DNA from: Verrucomicrobiota bacterium
Lineage (GTDB): Bacteria; Verrucomicrobiota; Verrucomicrobiia; Opitutales; Opitutaceae
NCBI GenBank assembly: GCA_030916665.1
Contig: JAUPWC010000098.1
Span: forward strand, 1 to 15,333
Length of the DNA stretch: 15,333 nucleotides
Direction of reading: 5' to 3'
Below the pieces are notes generated by a model. That model saw nothing but the letters and a program-made list of their open reading frames with translations. It did not search any database and was not told the DNA's origin. Below, piece after piece: positions 1-11,509 of the stretch. Numbering within the stretch: position 1 is the first letter of the stretch; every line of letters begins with the position of its first letter. A program made the translations under genes and the position numbers.

Positions 1-652
1 AGTGCTGCGCCGGGGTGACCGTCACCTTCACCCCCGGCTTCACCTCGTGGCTCTGCCACCAGTCGAGTTCGACCGCGGTGTCGATGCCCTCCCCGGCGAG
101 AAACGGCCTGTTGCCGAGCGTGGTCACGATGACCGGACGGTGCGCGGCATGCAGGCGTTTCAGGGTGGGCAGATCGAGGTGGTCGTAGTGGTTGTGGCTG
201 ACGAGGACCAGGTCGATGCGCGGCAGCGCGTCAAAGGCGAGACCGGGCGCGCGCACGCGTTTCGGGCCGGCCCACGACACGGGGCTGCAGCGCTCGGACC
301 AGATCGGGTCGGTGAGCACGTTGAGTCCGTCAAATTGGATCAGGAAAGTGTCGTGACCGACGAAGGTCACGGCGCACTCGCGCGGCCCGAGGGTCGCCGG
401 CAGCGTCGGGGCGGCCGTGTTCTCGATCCATGCGGGCCACATGCCCTGAGTGCGACCAAACTGCCATTTGAGCAGGTCGCGGAAACAGCGCGGGTTGTGG
501 TCGTTCGGGTTGAAGAAGCGTTCGCCGTCGAAGTGGTCGCTGCGGGGATAGGGAGGGTTCATGGCTTCATCGGCGCGGGCCGGATTCCCGGAGGCCAGAG
601 CCGCGGTCCCGGCGGACAGCAGGCGGAGAAACCGGCGGCGGGAAAACAGCAT
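1..652 (-). CDS. MBL-fold metallohydrolase, NAPE-PLD-like, Tat-exported (3' end outside window)
   Basis: The minus-strand frame from the ATG at 652 stays open to the window edge and gives 217 residues of an incomplete protein. The N-terminus MLFSRRRFLRLLSAG carries a near-ideal twin-arginine motif (SRRRFLR) followed by an Ala-rich hydrophobic stretch and an ARA-type cleavage site around residue 27, so export of the folded protein through Tat is likely. Residues 153-158 read HNHYDH, the HxHxDH zinc-binding signature of the metallo-beta-lactamase fold; upstream 'VTFVGHDTFLIQFDGLNVLTDP' style residues (about 84-105) match the family's first strands. Overall it resembles the N-acyl-phosphatidylethanolamine phospholipase D/UlaG-like branch. 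Known family role: metal-dependent hydrolysis of phosphodiesters or lactones; the actual substrate cannot be read from the sequence. It is divergent from the Sel1 gene, 91 bp away. No clear Shine-Dalgarno sequence precedes the start. Confidence 0.85.
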   Translation of the reverse strand, partial: MLFSRRRFLRLLSAGTAALASGNPARADEAMNPPYPRSDHFDGERFFNPNDHNPRCFRDLLKWQFGRTQGMWPAWIENTAAPTLPATLGPRECAVTFVGHDTFLIQFDGLNVLTDPIWSERCSPVSWAGPKRVRAPGLAFDALPRIDLVLVSHNHYDHLDLPTLKRLHAAHRPVIVTTLGNRPFLAGEGIDTAVELDWWQSHEVKPGVKVTVTPAQH

Positions 653-665
653 GGACCGGACAATG

Positions 666-681
666 GGCGGGTTCGCCCGCC
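666..681. other. Short perfect hairpin with TTCG loop in divergent intergenic region
   Basis: Six perfect base pairs (GGCGGG/CCCGCC) close a TTCG tetraloop when read on the plus strand. It lies in the 91-bp gap between two divergent genes, so it would fall in the 5' leader of one or both. There is no T-run after it, so it is not an intrinsic terminator. I see no convincing -35/-10 pair in this gap. The role is unknown; a leader stability element is possible. Confidence 0.35.
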
Positions 682-743
682 GCGCAAGCGGCCTACGCAG
701 CCCTACGTATTGCCGCCGACGGGGAAAACTGACACCCTGCGTG

Positions 744-3700
744 ATGCCCGCTTCCGTCCGCCCCGGTGTCCGCTCGCTGATCGTTTGCCTTGCGCTGTTT
801 TTCTACAACGCACTCCCCGCCGAGCAGACCGAGGACGGCCGCGATGTCGCGGCCTTGCTGAAACAGGCGCGGGCCGGGGATGTGACGGCGCAGCTTGCCC
901 TCGCCAACCACGTGCTCGATCGCGTGGACCTCCCGGCTGACGATGATCAAGCGGAGCCCGTGGCGATCGACTGGAGCCAACTTGAGCGCTGGCTGATCGC
1001 CGCCGCCGCGAAGGGCAACCCGGAAGCCGCTGCGCAGCTGGGCAGCATCTACTTCGAGGGACTGGGCGGCTTGGAGCAGAATTATTCAAAGGCCCTCGCG
1101 GCCTTCACCAAGGCTGCCAGCGGCGGAAGCGTCCCCGCCATGCTGACACTGGCCGACTTCTTTACCAAGGGCTACGGCGTTCCCGTCGATTTCGCCAAGG
1201 CGGAGGAATGGCTCAAACGCGCTCAAGCCAAGGAGGGGGATGTCACCGGTTATGCCGAGATCGCCGCCACGCGCCTGCAGGATCTCGCCGCGGCCCGGGA
1301 GCGGAGCGCCGAAATCACCGCGCTGCGCAAGCAGGCCGACGCCGGGGACGCCCCGGCCGCCTACAAGCTCTTTGAGTATCTCGGCAATCGCGACGACGGG
1401 CTTTTCTATTCGGAAAAGGACGCGATGCACTATCTCCGCCGGGCCGCCGAGCTCGGGGAAAAATATGCGCAGGATGAACTCGCACGACAGCTCCTGGCCG
1501 ACAACACCGAGGAAGCGCTCAGTTGGCGCCGCAAGGCCGCCGATCAGGGCGTCGGCTCGGCCCAGTATGACCTCGGTCTGGACTTGGGCTACGGACGCGG
1601 CCTGACCCGCGACCGCGCCGAGGCGGCCCGCTGGCTCATGCTCGCTGCAGCGCAAGGCTTGCCGATCGCCCAGCAGACCCTGGCCAGTTTTCCGTTCTAC
1701 AGCGGCTTGTCGCGCAGCGAAGCCGGGGCGTTGCTCTCGAAGCCCGACGGCCTCGCCAAACTCACGGCCGCCGCGCAGAAGGGCGACGCCGAAGCCCAGT
1801 TTGTCCTCACCCGCTCGGCCAAGCTTCCGACCCGGGCTGAGTCCGCCACGTGGCTGGTCAAGGCCGCCGAGCAGGGACATCGCGCCGCGATGACGAGCCT
1901 GGCGGCGGCGCTCAACAACGGCGACGGCGTGCCGCGCGACGTCGCGCGGTCCCTCGCCTGGTATGCCCGCGCCGCCCAGCTCGGCGACACCGAGGCCATG
2001 ATGCGCCTCGCGGAGGCCTTGCTCAACGGCCATGGCCTCGCGGCGGACCCGGCCTTGGCCAAGTTTTGGCTGCAACGGGCTGCGTCGCTGGTGCCGGCGA
2101 ACGATCCGGGCCGCCCGTGGATGGAGCAAACCGCGGCGAAGATTGCCGCGGCTCCAACCGCCTCCGATGTCGCGCTCGCAAACCTGAACGACCGGGCCGC
2201 CCTCGCGGTCAAGCCGGGCACCCCGCCCGCCCCCGTGGCGATCGTGGCCGCCGCGCCCAAACCCGCGGCCCCCGCGGCTCCGCCCAAGCGCACGCCGGAG
2301 GAACTGCTCGCCGCCGCCGGGAAGGGCGACGCCGAGGCTATGTATCAGCTCGGACTCGCCGACATCGAGCGCCGCCAGATCGAAAGCAACAAACACACCG
2401 GCGCATTTTACCCTGACCCGCAGCGCAATGCGGCGGACTTCCGCTGGATCATGACCGCCGCGCGCGCCGGCCACCCCGAAGCGCAGTTCCTCGCCGCCAC
2501 CCACTGGCTCTCGGCCGAGACCGACACCGGCAAGAAAGCCTGGCTCGAAAAAGCCGCCGCGCAGGACCACACGGCGGCAAAGGATAAACTCGCCGCGCTC
2601 AACCAGGGGGCGGCCAAAGCCGTCGCCCTCGCCGCCGAGGCCGCCAAGCAGGCTGCCGCCGACCGCCCGCTCGCCGCGCAGGGCGACCCCGACGCGGCGT
2701 TCCGGCTCTTCCGCACGCGCATGAAGGAGATCGTTGCCACGATCCTCGACGATTTCTCCGCCGCCCAGAACGGCCGGCCCACGTCGGGCAAAAACTTCAA
2801 GCTCGGTTACCTCGACGCCGAGATGATCAAGTGGGCCGACGCGATCACCAACCACCTGCACCCGGATGGCCTCGTGATGCTGCACGACTACCTGCGCGAC
2901 GCCCGCCCGGACTTCGCCTATCGCGCGCTGCTCCTGCGCGAGCGGATCGCGAAGACCGACCTGCGCCTGCAACTGGCCGACGGCGGCTTCGGCACGAATT
3001 CGCGCGCCGGTTTCGAGAAGGCCCTCGCCCACCTGCGGGGCAAGCTCACCGCCGACCAGCGCGCCCAGACCGAGAAGACCACCGCCGGGCAGTTCGGCGG
3101 CCCGTGGGTCGACAACGTCATCGGCGCCAACTTCGAGCGCGGCGTCTGCGGTTATCCGCAGGACCATGGTCTCGCGCTCGTCCACTATCGCCGCTCTGCC
3201 GAGGCCGGGTTCGCCGCCGGGCAGACCAATCTTGCCCGTAGCTACCATTACGGTCTCGGGGTGGCCAAGGATCTGGATCAAGCCCGCGTGTGGTATGCGA
3301 AGGCCGCCGCGCAAGGCAACGCCACCGCGCGCGAGCAGTTGCAGCTCATGGACGCGCTCACCGGCATGGTGCGCCTCAAGTCGCTCAGTGCCGAGGAGCG
3401 GGCCAAGCTCTCCGAACTCGACTGGGCGCAGGCGGAGTTCCAATTGCTCAACGGCGAACAGCGCGAGAAGCTGCACTCAGCCGACCCGACTCTCGCCGTC
3501 GCGCTCGGCATCAACTACCGCGATGGCACCAATGGTTTCGTGCAGGACTACGGTCGCGCCTACGTCTGGTTTTCCGCGGCGGTAGAAAAGGGCAGCGCCA
3601 CCGCCCATGTCGAAATCGGGAACATCCTTTTCCGCGGCCAAGGTCGTCCGACCGACAAGCCCGGTGCTTTCGCGCACTACCTCCGCGCCGCCGACCTCGG

Positions 3701-6047
3701 CGACGCCGTCGGTCAGCTCAACGCGGGTTTCTGCTACCTCCAAGGCGAAGGCGTCGCGCGCGATCCGCTTGCCGCCCACGATTGGCTCACCCAGGCGGCC
3801 GCCAAGGGCCAGGCCAATGCCCAGGCCCTCGTGGAGACTCTCAAGCGCGACGCCGGCCTCCAGCTCCTCCTCGCCCAACGCAACGAGCAGCAGGCCTTGC
3901 GCAATGCCCAGCAAGGGGTCGCCACCGCGTTGTCGTACCCGCCCTCGCCCGCCCCGGCCGTCCCGGCGCAACCCGGTAAACCGGAACACCTGAAGCAGAC
4001 CCCACTGAACGGAAGCGGGAGTTTGCACGCCCAACCCACGGGTGATGCCTTTATCGATGCCATGCTGGCGAATTACCAGTTACCGGACACCGGTAATCAG
4101 GAAAAAGACCTGGCAATCATCCATCAGGCCAACGTGGAGAACTTGCGCCAGAGCAACGATCTCATGCAAAAGGCCGCGCCGCCGCCTTCTCCTCCCGTGC
4201 CCAAGGCAGGGGCCGTGACTCTGGCCAACCTGCAGATGCAGGCCATCCCCGCGGCGGAGGGCTTGGATCGTCAGCTTCTGCTGCAAGCCATGGAGAAACT
4301 GCGGCTCGACACGATGGGGCTGCACCTGCGGAGCACGTTCAGCGGCATTTCCCGGTATCGGATCAAGGAGGCGCAGGAGATTTTAGCCAAGGGGGACAAA
4401 CCCAAGGCGCGGGCGCTGCTGCTCGAAGCCGTCCAGGCCGGGATGACGGCGGCGGTGCCGGTGTGGCAGCAGCATTTTCCGGACGAGCCGGTGACCCGCC
4501 CCGACTATCGCGGCGACCAGCCCGGACTCTGGCCGGGAGATGCCGACTGGCCGGACGCCCAGGCCAAGTTCGCGGAGGGCATTATCCGCTGGGAAACCGA
4601 TCCCGCCGCCGCGCGCCCGCTCCTGGAGGTGGCGGCCCAGGCAGGCTTGGCCGAGGCCTATACCTTCCTGGCAACCAACCGAAAAGATCTGCGTCCGGGC
4701 GACTTCGACATCCTGCTCAACGCGGCCTTTGATCGCGGGCATGCCAGTGCGGCCTGGCGGCAGCGCCGGGTCCGCGTCTTCCAGCCCGCCTCCGAGCTGG
4801 CCGTGGCCAGCGTGGAGCAACTCACGGCCGATGCGAACACCGGCAACTCTGCCGCCGGACTGGTGCTCGGCCTGAAGCTCCTGCCGACCAAGCCGCAGGA
4901 GGCGCTCGACCGCATCGGACGGCTGGCGGTTGACGGCTACGGCGGGGCGGAGATGGTGCTCGCGGGTCTTTACGCCCAGGGCCGCGTTGTGTCGGCGGAT
5001 GCCACGCAGGTCTTCGTCTGGCTGGCCCGCGCCGCGGTCAAGGGTTCCCAGGATGCGCAGATCCACTTCGGCGACTACCTCGCCGGCAAATACGGCGGAG
5101 AGGCCCAGCCGGCCTTCGCCCGGTTCTGGTATCTGCGCGCCGCGGCCTTTCCGCGCGAGGGCGACTATCTGGCCCGATTGGCGTCATTGCGCGCCGCCGA
5201 GATCGATCTGGCGGCCGAGACGGCGTCGCGGGCCTTTGCCCAGGCCCGGAAACTGGCGGCCACCGCCCGCGTGCCCGGACTTCCGCACGGGACCAAGACC
5301 CCCGAGGCGAATCCGGTGCCGGCGAAAACCGGCGACACGGCCCCCCTGCATTCGCCCGCTCCCCTGCTCCCCCCACCCGCCCCGGTCCAACCGGCTCGAC
5401 CCCTCTCCGCGCCGGTGCCAGACGGCAAGGTGCCGGAGCTTAACCCTGGGACTTTTGCGGCGTTACAACGGATCAAAACACGAAATCCCGGCGCGTTGAC
5501 CGAGGCGGATGCGAAGGAACTGAAGCAAATGATTTTGAGTGACGGGGGTCAGATCGACGACGCGGAGCGCGACCTGCTCGCGGAGATGACGAACAGCCAG
5601 TTCCGTAACATCCAGGTGCGGCCGGTTGGAGGGAAACCCGACGCGCCCGCCGTCACCCTTTTTCCGGCCTCGGGCAACGCCAAGAAAGTGTTGCGGGAAG
5701 TGTTATACGGAAAACCAGATTTCGAGGTGGAATGGAACCGGGGCGCCCCCGGTTACGGTGCACTCTGCACCTACTGCCAGGTATCACCGGAAGCCGAGGT
5801 CGATGTCCTGCGGTTTGTGGCCGGTAAATTTGCCATGGAATGGGAGCGGAGCAACCCAGCCAACAGCTACAAACCCCTGCGCGATTTGATCGCCCGACAG
5901 TATAGCTACAGCAACTCATTGGGCCAGGACACAAGCTTGGGGCGTTCCCTCCTATACCGCGCGATGAACCAAATCGACCGCAACAGCAAAGACCAGATTC
6001 CGGATTTCCTCTACAATTGGGTCAGCACCACCGGCAAAACCCCATAA
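744..6047 (+). CDS. Giant exported Sel1-repeat (SEL1/TPR-like) protein, 1767 aa
   Basis: The frame opens earlier (561) but the ATG at 744 is preferred: it begins a signal peptide (MPASVRPGVR then SLIVCLALFF, likely cleaved after ALPA, residue 26), and the earlier start would run through the divergent gene. The body holds many Sel1-like units of the form A..G...A...LG..Y..G.GV..D...A..W...AA..G, in blocks at about residues 30-480, 517-660, 790-1060 and 1250-1520. Pro/Ala-rich linkers separate the blocks (about 486-516, 1064-1092, 1143-1158, 1530-1562). The last ~200 residues (1569-1767) are not Sel1-like, contain a CTYC pair (Cys1675, Cys1678), and match no domain I recognise. Sel1 repeats are alpha-solenoid scaffolds for protein-protein contacts; a periplasmic or surface scaffold is the likely role here. 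The ends of the linkers and the C-terminal domain look lower in GC than the repeat blocks. It converges on gmk with only 8 bp between stop codons. Confidence 0.85.
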   Translation: MPASVRPGVRSLIVCLALFFYNALPAEQTEDGRDVAALLKQARAGDVTAQLALANHVLDRVDLPADDDQAEPVAIDWSQLERWLIAAAAKGNPEAAAQLGSIYFEGLGGLEQNYSKALAAFTKAASGGSVPAMLTLADFFTKGYGVPVDFAKAEEWLKRAQAKEGDVTGYAEIAATRLQDLAAARERSAEITALRKQADAGDAPAAYKLFEYLGNRDDGLFYSEKDAMHYLRRAAELGEKYAQDELARQLLADNTEEALSWRRKAADQGVGSAQYDLGLDLGYGRGLTRDRAEAARWLMLAAAQGLPIAQQTLASFPFYSGLSRSEAGALLSKPDGLAKLTAAAQKGDAEAQFVLTRSAKLPTRAESATWLVKAAEQGHRAAMTSLAAALNNGDGVPRDVARSLAWYARAAQLGDTEAMMRLAEALLNGHGLAADPALAKFWLQRAASLVPANDPGRPWMEQTAAKIAAAPTASDVALANLNDRAALAVKPGTPPAPVAIVAAAPKPAAPAAPPKRTPEELLAAAGKGDAEAMYQLGLADIERRQIESNKHTGAFYPDPQRNAADFRWIMTAARAGHPEAQFLAATHWLSAETDTGKKAWLEKAAAQDHTAAKDKLAALNQGAAKAVALAAEAAKQAAADRPLAAQGDPDAAFRLFRTRMKEIVATILDDFSAAQNGRPTSGKNFKLGYLDAEMIKWADAITNHLHPDGLVMLHDYLRDARPDFAYRALLLRERIAKTDLRLQLADGGFGTNSRAGFEKALAHLRGKLTADQRAQTEKTTAGQFGGPWVDNVIGANFERGVCGYPQDHGLALVHYRRSAEAGFAAGQTNLARSYHYGLGVAKDLDQARVWYAKAAAQGNATAREQLQLMDALTGMVRLKSLSAEERAKLSELDWAQAEFQLLNGEQREKLHSADPTLAVALGINYRDGTNGFVQDYGRAYVWFSAAVEKGSATAHVEIGNILFRGQGRPTDKPGAFAHYLRAADLGDAVGQLNAGFCYLQGEGVARDPLAAHDWLTQAAAKGQANAQALVETLKRDAGLQLLLAQRNEQQALRNAQQGVATALSYPPSPAPAVPAQPGKPEHLKQTPLNGSGSLHAQPTGDAFIDAMLANYQLPDTGNQEKDLAIIHQANVENLRQSNDLMQKAAPPPSPPVPKAGAVTLANLQMQAIPAAEGLDRQLLLQAMEKLRLDTMGLHLRSTFSGISRYRIKEAQEILAKGDKPKARALLLEAVQAGMTAAVPVWQQHFPDEPVTRPDYRGDQPGLWPGDADWPDAQAKFAEGIIRWETDPAAARPLLEVAAQAGLAEAYTFLATNRKDLRPGDFDILLNAAFDRGHASAAWRQRRVRVFQPASELAVASVEQLTADANTGNSAAGLVLGLKLLPTKPQEALDRIGRLAVDGYGGAEMVLAGLYAQGRVVSADATQVFVWLARAAVKGSQDAQIHFGDYLAGKYGGEAQPAFARFWYLRAAAFPREGDYLARLASLRAAEIDLAAETASRAFAQARKLAATARVPGLPHGTKTPEANPVPAKTGDTAPLHSPAPLLPPPAPVQPARPLSAPVPDGKVPELNPGTFAALQRIKTRNPGALTEADAKELKQMILSDGGQIDDAERDLLAEMTNSQFRNIQVRPVGGKPDAPAVTLFPASGNAKKVLREVLYGKPDFEVEWNRGAPGYGALCTYCQVSPEAEVDVLRFVAGKFAMEWERSNPANSYKPLRDLIARQYSYSNSLGQDTSLGRSLLYRAMNQIDRNSKDQIPDFLYNWVSTTGKTP

Positions 6048-6055
6048 AGGGAGCT

Positions 6056-6661
6056 TCAGGTCTCACCGCCGCGCTTCCGCCGGGCCTGGGCCCAGTAGTC
6101 GAGCAACGCGCGGAAATCCTGCTCCTTGGTGGAGCTGTGGATCACGTAATCGTAGCTGTTGCGCTCGGCGAGCTCGAGCTCGGCGCTCTGCATCCGGCGC
6201 GCCAGCTCCTCGGCGGGCAGCGGGCCGCGGCCCTCGAGGCGCTCGCGCAGCACGTCGAGCGAGTCGGGCGCGATGAAGATCGTGACGAGGCAGCGCTGCA
6301 GCAGCGGGATCTCCGCCGCCGCGGCGCGGATGCTGCGCACGCCCTGCACGTCCACGTTCATCACGAGGTTGGTGTGCGGCAGGCGGTCGAGCACGGAGGA
6401 CTTGGGCGTGCCGTAGCGGTATTTCCGGTGGACCCAGGCCCACTCGAGAAACCCGTCTGCCGCGAGCTTCGCGTCGAACTCCGCCTCGGAATAAAAATGG
6501 TAGTCGCGACCATTGACCTCGTTGGGCCGGGGCGGGCGCGTGGTGGCGGTGATCACGCGCTCGAAGCCGGGCACCTCGGTGACCAGCCGTTCACAGAGGG
6601 TGCTTTTGCCCACGCCGGCGGGACCGGCGAGAATGATCAGGCCATGGACGTCCGCGGCCAT
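6056..6661 (-). CDS. gmk: Guanylate kinase
   Basis: This 201-aa cytoplasmic enzyme has the usual guanylate kinase length. It phosphorylates GMP to GDP with ATP in purine nucleotide metabolism. Visible motifs are the P-loop GPAGVGKST at residues 13-21, the GMP-binding segment TRPPRPNEVNGRDYHF at about 41-56 (family form TRxxRxGExxGxDYxF; here NE replaces GE), and YRYGTP at about 81-86, matching the conserved YGT. The TGA stop of the upstream membrane-protein gene is only 4 nt before the ATG, so the two genes are very likely co-transcribed and translationally coupled. It is the last gene of the miaB-led group. No intrinsic terminator is possible in the 8-bp gap to the convergent Sel1 gene, so its transcript probably runs into the 3' end of that gene in antisense. 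Confidence 0.95.
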   Translation of the reverse strand: MAADVHGLIILAGPAGVGKSTLCERLVTEVPGFERVITATTRPPRPNEVNGRDYHFYSEAEFDAKLAADGFLEWAWVHRKYRYGTPKSSVLDRLPHTNLVMNVDVQGVRSIRAAAAEIPLLQRCLVTIFIAPDSLDVLRERLEGRGPLPAEELARRMQSAELELAERNSYDYVIHSSTKEQDFRALLDYWAQARRKRGGET

Positions 6662-6665
6662 CGGC

Positions 6666-7205
6666 TCAGTAGGTGAAGGCGGCGGCCGAGGTCGCGAGGC
6701 CGTAGGTCAGCAAAACGGCGCCGAGCAGCTTCGGCCGGCCGGGACGGCGGAACAGCCAGTCGAAGAAATCGCGCAGACGGAACGGATACGCCGCGAGATA
6801 CAGCGCCGCGGCGAGGCCGACATAGACCGCGGTGACCATCAGCAGGCGCTGCGGGTGGTCCCACTTCATGTAGGCGGCGCGCAGCAGCGGCTCGGCGCCG
6901 AGCAGAACCAGCACGCTCAGCCCGCGCACGGCGAGAAAGTCGGGCGTGTAGATGAAGGCCAGCACGGCCAGCGCCCCGAAGCCGATGATGACGGGCATCG
7001 GCGTCTGGAAGAAAATCAGGTCGGCCTCGCCCGTGCGCGACAGGCGCCACAGGAAGCAGAGGGCGCCGAGACCGAACAGCGCCCACGCGGCGGCCTGCGA
7101 ACGCGGCAGCGCCTTGGCCGCGGGCGCGGCGCCGGGCCAGAAAAGCACCGCGCCAAGGACAGCGAGGAGCAGACCGGGGAGGAGGGTGGCGAGGAAGAGG
7201 GACAT
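6666..7205 (-). CDS. Six-TM integral membrane protein of unknown function
   Basis: This 179-aa protein is dominated by hydrophobic helices at about residues 2-23, 38-54, 70-86, 90-108, 120-141 and 159-177, joined by short loops with Arg/Lys-rich patches (for example RLSRTGE at 54-60 and FRRPGRPK at 152-159). I do not recognise the family and see no catalytic motif; it may be a lineage-restricted inner-membrane protein. It sits 4 nt before gmk, so is coupled to it, and its ATG lies 4 nt after the terminal repeat of the S23-family element. Its leader and any ribosome-binding site are therefore contributed by the repeat (AAGAGAACGAG lies just upstream; no standard Shine-Dalgarno). If the long stem predicted for the element forms in the transcript, this start codon would be at its base. 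Confidence 0.75.
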   Translation of the reverse strand: MSLFLATLLPGLLLAVLGAVLFWPGAAPAAKALPRSQAAAWALFGLGALCFLWRLSRTGEADLIFFQTPMPVIIGFGALAVLAFIYTPDFLAVRGLSVLVLLGAEPLLRAAYMKWDHPQRLLMVTAVYVGLAAALYLAAYPFRLRDFFDWLFRRPGRPKLLGAVLLTYGLATSAAAFTY

Positions 7206-7207
7206 GA

Positions 7208-7243
7208 AAAATCGTTCTCGTTCTCTTAATCGTTCACGTTCTC
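7208..7243 (-). repeat. Hexamer array, downstream end of S23 element
   Basis: Read on the minus strand, six consecutive hexamers fill this stretch: GAGAAC, GTGAAC, GATTAA, GAGAAC, GAGAAC, GATTTT. The inner four (with adjoining bases) form the left 22-bp terminal inverted repeat (7210-7231). The third hexamer supplies the TAA stop codon of the S23-family gene (7226-7228), and the first two encode its last residues. Confidence 0.75.
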
Positions 7244-7642
7244 CACAAGCCCAGAACCGTAGGGAGCCTGATCTTCCTGAACAGTTCCGCCAAAACGTGC
7301 GATCAAACCCGCGACCAAAGAGACAACCCCCACCAAAATGACCTTACCTTCGGCGATATCCGCGGCGGCCAGTTTCTTACGGGCGACCAACACATCAAGG
7401 CAAGCGGCACATTCCAGTGCGGAACCCCGTGAAATATCGAAGTAGCGGCAGCGGTCGGGATGGGAACGCTTGCCGTTCCCCTCCGCGATATTAAGGACGA
7501 TGGAGGTAGAAGCGCGATCAAGTTGATCCCGGGCAGCCAGTTTGGCAGGCAGCCGTTCGATGACCGGTTCGACCCAGGCGGAAAATTTCAAGGCTTCCTG
7601 ATAAGCACGCAACTTCTCATGGTCGAACTGGGGTGGGTTCAT
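7226..7642 (-). CDS. Four helix bundle protein (S23 / 23S rRNA intervening-sequence protein family)
   Basis: The 138-aa product has the family hallmarks in order: FDHEKLRAYQEALKF (6-20), a QLDRASTSIVLNIAEGNGK core (40-58) matching QLxRAxxSIxxNIAEGxGR, RYFDISRGSALECAACLDVL (66-85) matching the RFxxIArGSaxExxxxLD segment, and a final hydrophobic helix VILVGVVSLVAGLIARFG (101-118). Residues 119-138 are an unconserved tail, and the last residues and the TAA stop are encoded by the element's hexamer repeat. Relatives are encoded in 23S rRNA intervening sequences, and the fold is shared with Avd of diversity-generating retroelements; biochemical function is not established, though nucleic-acid binding is suspected for the basic bundle. 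No Shine-Dalgarno precedes the ATG; the leader between repeat and start is 12 nt. The gene is intact, with no frameshift. Confidence 0.9.
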   Translation of the reverse strand: MNPPQFDHEKLRAYQEALKFSAWVEPVIERLPAKLAARDQLDRASTSIVLNIAEGNGKRSHPDRCRYFDISRGSALECAACLDVLVARKKLAAADIAEGKVILVGVVSLVAGLIARFGGTVQEDQAPYGSGLVENVND

Positions 7643-7654
7643 GGGGTCGGATTC

Positions 7655-7684
7655 GTTCTCATAATCGTTATCGTAATCTTAATC
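7655..7684 (-). repeat. Hexamer array, inner arm upstream of the S23 gene
   Basis: On the minus strand five in-register hexamers occur: GATTAA, GATTAC, GATAAC, GATTAT, GAGAAC. They lie 12 nt before the start codon of the S23-family gene. They are in inverted orientation to the outer array (7707-7740), from which they are separated by 22 bases that include the palindrome ATGCGCAT (7695-7702). Confidence 0.7.
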
Positions 7685-7706
7685 TCTGACTTGGATGCGC
7701 ATAAGC

Positions 7707-7740
7707 GAGAACGATTAGGATTAAGAGAACGAGAACGATT
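7707..7740 (+). repeat. Hexamer array, upstream end of S23 element
   Basis: On the plus strand the words GAGAAC, GATTAG, GATTAA, GAGAAC, GAGAAC and a partial GATT run without gaps. Bases 7719-7740 form the right terminal inverted repeat, and base 7740 is also the final base of the miaB stop codon. The array can pair either with the far end of the element (22 of 22 plus 7) or with the inner array (24 of 34 positions in register). Confidence 0.75.
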
Positions 7741-9101
7741 CAAACCCCAACTCCCGCCAGCTGGAGCTCGCCGTAGAGGACCGCCGTCGAGACGCGGTTG
7801 ATCTTCACCGGCACGAGTTCGCCGATCAGCCGCTCGCTGGCGGCGAAGTGGACGATGCGGTTGCCGCGGGTGCGGCCCATGAAGCCGATCCCCTTCTTGT
7901 CCGGGCCCTCGACCAGCACTTCCTGGGTCGTGCCGAGGAGCGTGGCGTTGCGGCGGTTGGAGTTGGCCTCGAGGATTTTCAGGAGCGTCTCGTTGCGCGC
8001 CTCTTTCACCTCGTCGGGGATCTGGTCGCCCATGTCGGCGGCGGGCGTGCCGGTGCGGATCGAATACTTGAAGACGTAGGCCATGTCGAAATCGCAGGCG
8101 GCGAACAGGTCGCGGGTCTGGGCGAACTCCCCCTCGGTCTCGCCGGGGAAGCCGACGATGATGTCGGTCGAAAAATACATGTCGGGGCGCACGCGGCGCA
8201 GGTCGTCTACGATCTGCCGGTAGCGGTCGCGCGAGTAGGGCCGGTTCATCGCCTTCAGGATGCGGTCGCTGCCGGACTGCATGGGGAGGTGGACGTATTC
8301 GCAGAGTTTCTCCAGCCGGCCGTAGGCCTGGATGAGGTCGTCCTTGAAGCCGCGCGGATGCGGCGAGGTGAAGCGGATGCGGCGGACGCCCGGAATGGCG
8401 TTCACGCGCTCAAGCAGCTGCACGAAGGGCGTGACGCCGTCCGTGTGCGCGTAGTCGCGGCGGCCGTAGCTGGTGACGATCTGGCCGAGGAGCGTGATTT
8501 CCTTCACGCCGCGGTCGGCGAGCTGCTCGCACTCGCGCACGATCTCGTCCATCGGCCGCGAGCGCTCGTCGCCGCGGGTTTTCGGCACGATGCAGAAGGC
8601 GCAGTCCATGTTGCAGCCCTGCTGGATGGAGACGAAGGCGGAAACCTGCTTCTCCTCGAGCACATGGTCGCGGATGGTGTTCTGCGAACCGGTCTCCTCG
8701 GCGATGTCCACGATGCGCGTGGGCAGCACGGTGCCGGCTTCCTGCGCGGCGCGCAGGTTGTCGAGGTAGTCGGGCACCTGGTGGAATTTCTGGGTGCCGA
8801 CGATGAGGTCCACGTCGGGCAGGGCGTCGAGGAGCGTGGCGCCGCGGTTCTGCGCCATGCAGCCGAGGATGCCCAGGATGAAGCGCGGGTTGCGCTTCTT
8901 CTTCTGGGCCACGTAGCCGGCCTTGCCGATGGCCTTCTGCTCCGCCATGTCGCGCACGCTGCAGGTGTTCATCAGCATGACGTCGCAGGCGTCCTCGTCC
9001 TGCACGATGCGGTAGCCCCGGGCACGGAGCAGCGCGGCCACGGCCTCGCTGTCGCGCTCGTTCATCTGGCAGCCGTAGGTCTTGATATAGACGCGGTTCA
9101 C
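7740..9101 (-). CDS. miaB: tRNA-2-methylthio-N6-dimethylallyladenosine synthase MiaB
   Basis: From the GTG at 9101 the product is 453 aa, a normal length. MiaB is a radical-SAM enzyme that adds a methylthio group to i6A37 of tRNAs, using two iron-sulfur clusters. The N-terminal UPF0004 domain has its three cluster cysteines (TYGCQMNE Cys11, NTCSVRD Cys47, GCMAQ Cys81). The radical-SAM motif CNMDCAFC places Cys163, Cys167 and Cys170. A TRAM RNA-binding domain occupies about 388-453 ([11 protein letters not shown]...[12 protein letters not shown]). The frame is open back to 9182, but the GTG start gives the family's [12 protein letters not shown] beginning and avoids overlap with the divergent gene. 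No strong Shine-Dalgarno is seen. It leads the minus-strand group ending in gmk, and its TGA overlaps the S23 element by one base. MtaB-type relatives are less likely given the motif context and domain set. Confidence 0.94.
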
Positions 9102-9199
9102 GAGGACAGAAACGGTTTGATTACCCGCCCCGTCCCGGCGGTCAACGCGGGAAACTACCGGGCTTGCCCGCGGTCGGAACAAGGCCAGCCTCCCCGGCC

Positions 9200-11509
9200 A
9201 TGCGGCGCCTGATCCTCACCCTTCTGCTGCTTGCCCTGCAAGGGCTTGGCCGTCTGGCCGGCGCGCCCGCCGGCGCCGAGGCCGTGCTGGTCGTGACCGG
9301 CGACATGCACTCGGCCTACGACCGGACGGCGCAGTTCGTGGCGCTGGTGGACCGCCTCAAGGCCGAGCACCCCGCGCTCCCGCTGGCCGTGCTGCTGAAC
9401 GGCGACACGCAGGAATACGGCAACGCCCTCGCCCGGCGCAGCGGCGGCGAGATCGATTTCGCGCTCTACGCCGCGCTCGTGCGGCGCGCGCCGGTGATCC
9501 TCAACCTCGGCAACCACGAGGCCGACTATTTTGCCCTGGAAGAGACCGTGCAGCGCGCCGAGGCCGTCGGCATGAAGGTGATCGGCAACATCGTCAACCG
9601 CGGCACGGGCCGGCCCTTCGCCCCGGCGTCCGTGCCGCTCCAGCTCGGCACGCACACGGCGACGGTCGTGGGCCTCGCCCCCGACGCGCTCGCGACCTAC
9701 CGCGTGGCGGTCCGGCCGTCGCTGGATCTGGCCGACCCCGTGGTCTGGGCAAAGGAGTATTTTCCGCGGCTGCTGGGCGGCCCGGGCGAGGGCGTTGAGA
9801 GCAACACGCCGCCCCCGCTGCCGCTTGTCGTCAGCCACTGCGGCCTCGCGGCCGACCGGGAGTTGCTGAAGCTCGTGCCCGACGGCACGCTGTTTTCCGG
9901 GGCGCACAGCCACCTGCGTTTCGTCGAGCCGTTCGGGCGCACGGTGTATTTTCACACGGGTTCCTGGACGCAACACGTCGCGCTGGCGTGGCTCTGCCGC
10001 GACGAAGCGGGCGTGTTGCGCTGGCAGGTCGAGCCGCTGCCCGTGCCCGCCGACGGGCCGGCCGATCCGGAACTGGCGGCGGTCATCCGCGACGTCCGCG
10101 AGCGGTGGCTCATCCCCGAGGACCGCGCCGTGGTCGGCCAGACCAAGCGGGCCATGGAAACACCGGAGGCCGCGCGGTTCGTTGCCCGGGTGCTGCGCGA
10201 AGGCGCGAAGGCCGACGCCGCGTTCATCGGCAACACCACGTTCGGCGGCGGCCTGCCGGCGGGCGACGTCACGCAGCTCGAGTTCGACGCCTGCGTGCGT
10301 TTCGACGGACCGGTTTACACCGCCACCGTCGGGGGCGCGCGCCTGCGGACGCTGCTTGCGGCAGCCAACCAGGGACCGGAAACGCCGTTTGCCGAGCGCG
10401 GCGGCGAATTCAACTTCGCCGACGGGCCGGACGTGATCGAAGACGCACGCCACTACCGGATCGCGACGACCGACTGGGGCGCGAAGAACACCGCGCGTTA
10501 TTTTGGCGAACCGGCCATCGTCTGGACCGAGCGTCCGGAACTCCGGCTCAAGACACTCGTGCGGGACCGGCTGGTGCGGGACCGCGTGCTGTCGTTTCCC
10601 GCCACGCCACAGGACCCGATCACGCCGGCGGCGGTCCTGGACAGCGACACGCTGGTGGAATTCGGCCGGCGGCTGTTCGAGGCCTACGCGCCCGAGGAAA
10701 TCCAGGAGGAGTTCGAGTTTCCCTCGAAGCAGGAGTGGGACGAGTTTGCCGCGCGCCTGCAGGCCGCGCTGGAGAGCAACGACCTGCGCCGCCTGGCCGC
10801 TTACGAACCCGAGGCGCGCGCCGCGTTGCTGGCCCTGCGGGCGCTGCCCGAATACGGGGATTACGCGGACTGGCTGACCGAGCGCCTTGATTACATCAGC
10901 GCCGCGCAGCAGGCCGTCGTCGCGCCTGCGCCCGGGCCGGTCAAACCCGATCCCGGGCCGAAACCCATCCCGGCGCCCGCGTCGGCGGAGCTTCCCAGCT
11001 ACGCGCTCTGGCTCGACCGCATGAAGACGCGTGCCGTGCCCGCGCGAGCACCGTTGCTGCTGCCGCGGCTGCAGCGGGTATTCATCGAGGAAGGCGTGCC
11101 CGCCGAGCTGGTCTGGCTGGCGGAGACCGAATCCACCTTCAACCCCGCCGCGCGCAGCCCGGTCGGAGCGCGCGGGCTTTTCCAGCTCATGCCCGAGACG
11201 GCCAAGCGCCTCGGGTTGCAGACCTTCCTGCCCGACGAGCGCACCGATCCGGAGAAATCGGCCCGGGCTGCCGCCCGCTACCTGCGTTATCTGCACGGCC
11301 GTTTCGGCGACTGGCCGCTGGTGCTCGCCGCCTACAACGCCGGCGAAGGCCGCGTCTGGCGCACGCTGAAGAGCGGGAACGCCAGCACCTTCGCCGAAAT
11401 CGCCGGCTCCCTGCCCGCCGAGACGCGCATGTATGTCCCGAAAGTCCTCGCCACCATCGAAACCCGCGCCGGCGTGAGCCCCGCCCGGCTCGCCGCCCCC
11501 GGCGCCTGA
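9200..11509 (+). CDS. Exported 5'-nucleotidase-like phosphoesterase fused to a lytic transglycosylase
   Basis: The ATG at 9200 starts a signal peptide ([20 protein letters not shown], cleavage near AGAEA, residue ~29); an upstream TTG at 9164 would lengthen it without benefit. The 769-aa product has a calcineurin-type metallophosphoesterase domain with metal ligands Asp35/His37 (GDMH), Asn67-Asp69 (NGD), GNHE at 104-107, His213 (SHCG) and His236/His238 (GAHSH). A 5'-nucleotidase C-terminal-like region follows (about 310-470, with [20 protein letters not shown]). A helical segment and Pro-rich linker (about 500-595) lead to an SLT lytic transglycosylase domain (about 625-740): ETESTFNP with probable catalytic Glu644, [11 protein letters not shown] and AYNAGEGRV. 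Such enzymes cleave periplasmic nucleotides and peptidoglycan strands respectively. The frame is continuous, so this is a real fusion rather than two annotated genes. It is divergent from miaB (98 bp) and 50 bp before the next plus gene. Confidence 0.85.

Follow-up and report, generated by a model that had tools for sequence, protein, structure and literature searches.

An S23 gene between inverted short-repeat arrays in an Opitutaceae genome: a candidate gene-bearing copy of a dispersed fold-back repeat family

The stretch of DNA analysed here (the window; 15,333 nt, contig JAUPWC010000098.1 of a Verrucomicrobiota bacterium of the family Opitutaceae) carries, between protein genes of a presumed operon, a short element in which a gene of the S23 family lies between mirror-image arrays of a short repeat. 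The layout of a small gene between such arrays recurs in several phyla and, in the genomes examined, is accompanied by dozens of gene-less copies, which suggests a repeat-spreading element that has so far gone undescribed. In our best explanation, to which we give a probability of roughly 0.55, a fold-back repeat family has S23 as its protein partner, and the element is the copy that bears the gene (the "master" copy). Its mobility is inferred, as is an action of S23 on the hairpins, the latter from co-occurrence, from shared ends and from a unit length that goes with the protein family.

The features of the element and its neighbours are collected in Table 1. Inverted-repeat and ORF analysis confirmed what an earlier note on this DNA had described, a unit of 531 bp with 22-of-22 inverted ends around an S23 gene: positions 7210-7231 pair exactly with 7719-7740, and the arms are 88% complementary over 34 nt. 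They are degenerate hexamer arrays (AATCGT TCTCGT TCTCTT ...) with a direct-repeat spacing of 18, i.e. 3 x 6. Since the third, inner array faces the upstream arm, the miaB-side end is a small hairpin by itself; this inner array was not seen in the copy of the element in the related genome G012. The coordinates also agree with the placement given earlier, as the miaB stop codon occupies 7740-7742 and has its last base within the arm, and the ATG of the downstream 179-aa ORF (7203-7205) lies 4 nt past the element. The S23 stop codon falls within an arm. The note had presented this as an exact fit between genes; the fit is indeed flush here, but closeness is usual for such elements, which on both sides lie a median of 12 nt from a neighbour of the same direction (determined with a crude gene caller).

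Table 1. Coordinates of the fold-back element and the adjacent host genes in the window
Feature	Position	Strand	Remarks
Whole fold-back element	7210..7740	-	S23 gene and inverted hexamer arrays, 531 bp
Array arm, downstream (gmk-side)	7210..7243		outer 22 nt exact
Array arm, upstream (miaB-side)	7707..7740		34 nt
Third, inner array	7653..7687 (about)		faces the 7707-7740 arm; alternative hairpin, miaB-side end
S23 / 23S_rRNA_IVP four-helix-bundle gene, 138 aa	7226..7642	-	PF05635 E 5.5e-19; TIGR02436; PDB 2GSC E 1e-7
miaB, upstream host gene	7740..9182	-	Radical_SAM, UPF0004, TRAM
Conserved 179-aa ORF, downstream host gene	6666..7205	-	membrane protein by eye; without Pfam match
gmk (guanylate kinase), next in presumed operon	6056..6661	-	Pfam

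PF05635 was the sole Pfam match of the S23 protein, in which no transposase or nuclease domain was recognised, and the closest solved structure by sequence is Xcc0516 of Xanthomonas campestris (2GSC). Estimates of dN/dS for S23 range from 0.05 to 0.14 (finite in 8 of 15 pairs, with dS near saturation), and the gene at miaB looks to be under purifying selection. Of 120 family genomes, 115 contain a relative of the 179-aa ORF. Elsewhere the window contains a 1,828-aa ORF with Sel1 repeats (561-6047; PF08238 E 1.4e-50) and an ORF (9164-11509) in which a lytic transglycosylase SLT domain is combined with calcineurin-like phosphoesterase and 5'-nucleotidase C-terminal domains.

The miaB spacer was compared in 30 family genomes, which were entered via the membrane gene out of 115 with a match. 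Nine of the 30 have an S23 match in the spacer, one of them shortened to about 38 aa; in six the spacer is almost empty (7-23 nt, by eye), and at least six others of the 30 have, likewise by eye, a different gene-less fold-back there with another unit (e.g. of the GTTGAAA and CACRGAG types). Outside this set, the S23 gene also occupies the same site in G012, G023 and G026. The comparison of miaB loci that had been proposed thus showed other relatives to have an almost empty or differently filled site. It had also been considered that all relatives might carry the S23 gene at this locus with diverged, non-pairing ends. The ends are diverged and array-like, and they pair in 10 of 12 aligned miaB-locus elements, the exceptions, in the piece compared, being G115 and the shortened copy in G021. 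Arms at the 12 loci match their own partners better than those of other loci (score 19.0 vs 16.1, p 0.007), of which genome-specific repeat units may be a simple cause.

To score S23 loci in general, the 250 nt on each side of the S23 domain were compared for their highest-scoring ungapped inverted repeat (match +1, mismatch -2). The set of relatives comprised 105 loci, i.e. the best-scoring PF05635 loci, those of the window's own genome and seven others; one locus was left out for a short flank, and one of the seven (G044) belongs to the order, outside the family. A score of at least 12 was reached by 81/104 loci and a score of at least 15 by 61/104, while 23/104 had no inverted repeat reaching 12. 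Matched control intervals gave 6/204 and 0/204 at the two thresholds, and a control membrane gene gave 0/30 at the lower one. Among the best 80 of at least 528 S23 loci in named genomes (one dropped), 62/79 scored at least 12 and 51/79 at least 15, against 4/130 and 0/130 controls; grouped by record title, the higher score was found in 21/28 Verrucomicrobia, 10/12 Planctomycetes, 13/29 Bacteroidetes/Balneolota and 7/10 others. Of 35 plasmid records with S23, 12 were analysed, all cyanobacterial, and all 12 have inverted arrays (scores 14-31, 11 of them at least 15). All six IMG/VR loci reached 12. Pooled over the S23, named-genome and GxxExxY sets (the latter described below), matched controls reached 12 in 15/469 and 15 in 0/469 cases. 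The unit is 7 nt long in 45 of 50 S23 arms in the family and in 31 of 41 in named genomes; in the window's lineage it is 6 nt. With the crude gene caller, 52 of 81 S23 elements point along both neighbours and 11 against both.

Some of these loci deserve separate description. On three plasmids, S23 array elements lie between cas genes (L415, L406, L414; cas6/S23/cas4 twice and cas10(cmr2)/S23/cmr3 once). Contig C227 of the window's genome has a pair of S23 elements about 1.7 kb apart (L006, L007), whose GATTTTC arms are almost the same and whose proteins share 80% identity; their neighbours resemble ABC-transporter genes, and in both elements the stop codon of S23 and the start codon of the following gene overlap (TGATG). 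This is probably a duplication inside an operon. The spacer that holds an AGTAGCG-type S23 element in the same genome is occupied by other gene-less fold-backs in three relatives (L190, L191, L192; by eye), and certain spacers look as if they were hot spots for repeats.

The search for similar ends elsewhere in the host genome, which had likewise been proposed, was productive. With up to 2 mismatches, ATCGTTCTCGTTCTC has 79 matches in the window's genome, compared with 1 for a reversed-pattern control, and many of these are +/- pairs 40-80 bp apart. An array hairpin was present at 17 of 20 places inspected (intergenic by eye; most had been chosen for paired matches). The genome-wide searches in this genome covered two S23 repeat families, and the AGTAGCG repeat of the second gave 48 matches vs 1 in the control. 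Close S23 paralogues within a genome are rare, since only 2/95 pairs among the best-scoring loci reach 65% identity. In the window's genome the loops of the gene-less copies score 7.27 vs 5.33 in shuffles, a likeness that perhaps comes from array units left in the loops.

The number of repeat copies goes with the presence of the S23 gene. The miaB spacer was classed in 92 family genomes, 22 with a window-type S23, 2 with a partial one, 61 without and 7 undetermined; "without" here means no window-type S23 at miaB, and such genomes may have S23 elsewhere. In 83 genomes the median number of repeat copies was 48 with S23 at miaB vs 3 without (Mann-Whitney p 1.8e-8, not corrected for phylogeny). 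A first comparison within the genus, of 4 holders vs 17 others, gave p 0.0027; in all six genera of this sample that include holders as well as non-holders, mean copy number is higher in the holders (within-genus permutation p 0.009). There are exceptions on both sides, with 77, 65 and 47 copies in non-holders and 5, 5, 6 and 7 in holders. G018, G057, G151 and G085 have 47-77 TCGTTC array matches and no window-type S23 seen at miaB (the spacer of G018 was left out of the classification); in these genomes the gene was possibly lost with the arrays remaining, or the master copy is elsewhere.

Whether arms travel with the gene was assessed by relating arm 6-mer sharing to protein identity in 81 S23 elements, using pairs in unrelated gene contexts. 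Mean sharing was 0.66 for pairs with at least 80% protein identity (n=26), 0.37 at 65-80% (n=46) and at most 0.02 in every band below 65% (n=2,935), and the correlation was reached by 0 of 1000 permutations. The 26 closest pairs all come from a single lineage, which has AGTAGCG arms at numerous loci, and are thus not independent. A given locus's own arms outscored every other partner at 15/38 S23 loci, 15/30 GxxExxY loci and 0/30 controls.

A second protein with another repeat unit shows the same arrangement. GxxExxY genes (PF13366) were found in 85 of 100 family genomes; the protein is a member of the PD-(D/E)XK nuclease family and unrelated to S23. Of its 70 best-scoring loci, 58 have inverted arrays scoring at least 12 and 45 at least 15, compared with 5/135 and 0/135 controls. 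The unit is 8-10 nt long in 40 of 42 arms, so that unit length goes with the cargo family (7 nt with most S23, 8-10 nt with GxxExxY). The co-travel test was weaker here (54 of 1000 permutations). In the complete genome of the relative G013, ACCACGAATNNACAC has 29 matches and the control 0; 8 exact pairs form close hairpins with unrelated loops, and further matches have imperfect partners. In one pair, which spans 433 bp, the same arms enclose a gene for a GxxExxY protein (Pfam E 3e-33); at least 8 hairpins without a gene have these arms too. When 400 kb of this genome were scanned for inverted repeats with arms up to 1.3 kb apart, 46 scored at least 17, compared with 0, 0 and 1 when the sequence was shuffled locally (three shuffles). 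Many of those inverted repeats (L286-L305) are separate REP-like hairpins (TGTAGG... GC palindromes), and at L364 an apparent REP-like hairpin lies within a GxxExxY-type array hairpin.

As the gene-bearing copy of such a family, the element would encode an S23 protein that binds the hairpin formed by the arrays, whether this is single-stranded DNA, a cruciform or RNA, and that drives or stabilises the spread or persistence of the hairpins in trans, as is thought for RAYT on REPINs. Spacers between operon genes would be places where insertions are tolerated. As S23 has no recognised nuclease domain, it may act together with a host nuclease or one of the GxxExxY type. Simple copy-and-paste in the manner of a MITE was rejected, because the loops of the gene-less copies in G013 are unrelated. 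No strain-level insertion was seen; among 44 elements of the GxxExxY type, with and without the gene, target duplications of no length stood clearly above shuffled partners, in agreement with the earlier description of the window's element as free of one.

The arrays might instead be the target rather than the product, if selfish S23 and GxxExxY ORFs invade pre-existing array hairpins in the manner of homing cargo, much as the ORFs of rRNA intervening sequences (IVSs) are found within rRNA helices. The membership of GxxExxY in a nuclease family fits this, as does the fact that repeat matches far exceed gene-bearing copies (for two S23 types in the window's genome and one GxxExxY type in G013), and rRNA IVSs are described in the available part of PMC4990558 as having replaced helix tetraloops. 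However, efficient homing would fill many hairpins per genome, whereas close paralogues are rare, and it does not predict that array number tracks the presence of S23; we regard it as unlikely. Passive arrays that expand by slippage, spread by recombination and are kept as terminators or spacers, with S23 as a hitchhiker, would agree with the degeneracy and varying unit number of the arrays and with the case of one lone, partnerless array (L395). Against it, unit length differs between cargo families, arms accompany an S23 lineage to unrelated loci and array count follows S23 presence; we give it a very low probability.

The earlier note had suggested an RNA-level explanation, an IVS-like insert in an mRNA spacer. 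What stands of this is that such a spacer contains an S23 element whose ends pair; its ends are tandem-repeat arrays and no unique stem. In the fuller version the paired ends would be an mRNA processing site for RNase III that insulates the cistrons, and the arrays would be kept for pairing. In the predicted transcript fold the ends form an uninterrupted 23-bp stem (z -2.84), most elements are co-directional with both neighbours, and RNase III excises the IVS from 23S rRNA (PMC4990558, available part). However, 11/81 elements oppose both neighbours, and in sense RNA the arm mismatches compatible with wobble pairing are rarer than the mirror type, with 39 vs 66 for S23 (binomial p 0.011) and 31 vs 63 for GxxExxY (p 0.0013), although base composition may confound this comparison because the upstream arm precedes a start codon. 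The commonest mismatch in the tables printed for S23 is A upstream vs G (as reverse complement) downstream. Gene-less arms in the window's genome are not pair-specific either (likeness 0.58 own vs 0.63 cross, 17 elements). With the wobble test reversed and no advantage of own arms in gene-less copies, selection for RNA pairing was rejected as a candidate and is not claimed here, and we consider the RNA-level explanation improbable.

The REPIN/RAYT system, in which the partner gene is near single copy per genome, is what the element appears to work most like, by analogy and not by homology. Shared traits are the many inverted-repeat hairpins dispersed in intergenic space of the window's genome and the scarcity of close S23 pairs within a genome noted above. 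Unlike in REPIN/RAYT, the partner gene is S23 (PF05635) and no Y1 (HUH) tyrosine transposase, and the arms are tandem 6-8-mers rather than one palindromic REP. Inverted ends built of short tandem repeats are also known from the fold-back (FB) transposons of Drosophila, which are eukaryotic and much longer; the likeness noted is one of layout. Many small intergenic hairpins with an associated gene are described for REPIN/RAYT in the accessible part of PMC3116915. In 23S rRNA IVSs, part of the family has an S23/IVP ORF between complementary, stem-forming ends (PMC4990558, same part), as has the window element. The latter differs in lying between protein genes, in a window without an rRNA (Rfam) match, and in that its tandem-array ends recur in gene-less hairpins elsewhere in the genome. 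Avd, an accessory protein of diversity-generating retroelements (DGRs), is a reported structural relative of S23 (PMC10053308, in part). Unlike in a DGR, no reverse transcriptase was found among the 9 window ORFs scanned (Pfam); the sole match in the assembly is on another contig. An enzyme acting in trans was rejected as a requirement and seems unneeded, since 22 of 61 family genomes had a reverse transcriptase match and none was found in S23-rich ones such as G070.

Short intergenic tandem units are likewise known as heptamer arrays. X. campestris is reported to have 186 GGGAATC arrays with 70 cases of close convergent inverted pairs; in the available part of that paper they are generally not tied to mobile elements, and its main text, to the same extent, leaves xcc0516 unmentioned (PMC4692102). 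A ttgtcag run of 44 copies is reported from Nostoc 7120 (PMC2408588, in part). The S23 arms of the family are likewise made of short tandem units, which measure 7 nt in 45 of 50 arms but 6 nt in the window's element. Unlike in the heptamer arrays as reported in these parts, where no partner gene is named, the arrays bracket S23 at all 12 cyanobacterial plasmid loci. Among the open-licence papers listed in our literature search, we found none that links S23 or GxxExxY to short-repeat arrays or assigns a role to either protein.

We think it possible, at somewhat less than even odds, that S23 and, independently, GxxExxY are trans-acting partners of bacterial two-component repeat systems that form a new class, in which each lineage would recognise and spread or maintain its own hairpins (of 7 nt for most S23 and about 9 nt for GxxExxY). 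If so, this would account for the cyanobacterial heptamer repeats and probably for the Xanthomonas GGGAATC arrays. It would likewise explain why S23 genes turn up here and there in operons, those of cas genes among them, and the IVSs with an S23 gene would be the copies whose landing site was rRNA. The occurrence of S23 in cas loci has been noted before and read as a CRISPR-linked function (PMC3936711, available part); given inverted-array inserts between cas genes on three plasmids, this would be reread, and the plasmid elements may account for the earlier reports. S23/IVP and GxxExxY proteins occur widely among the genomes searched, and where the heptamer arrays of bacterial spacers come from has not been known. 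Should protein and array turn out to be each other's missing half, two old puzzles would become one testable system.
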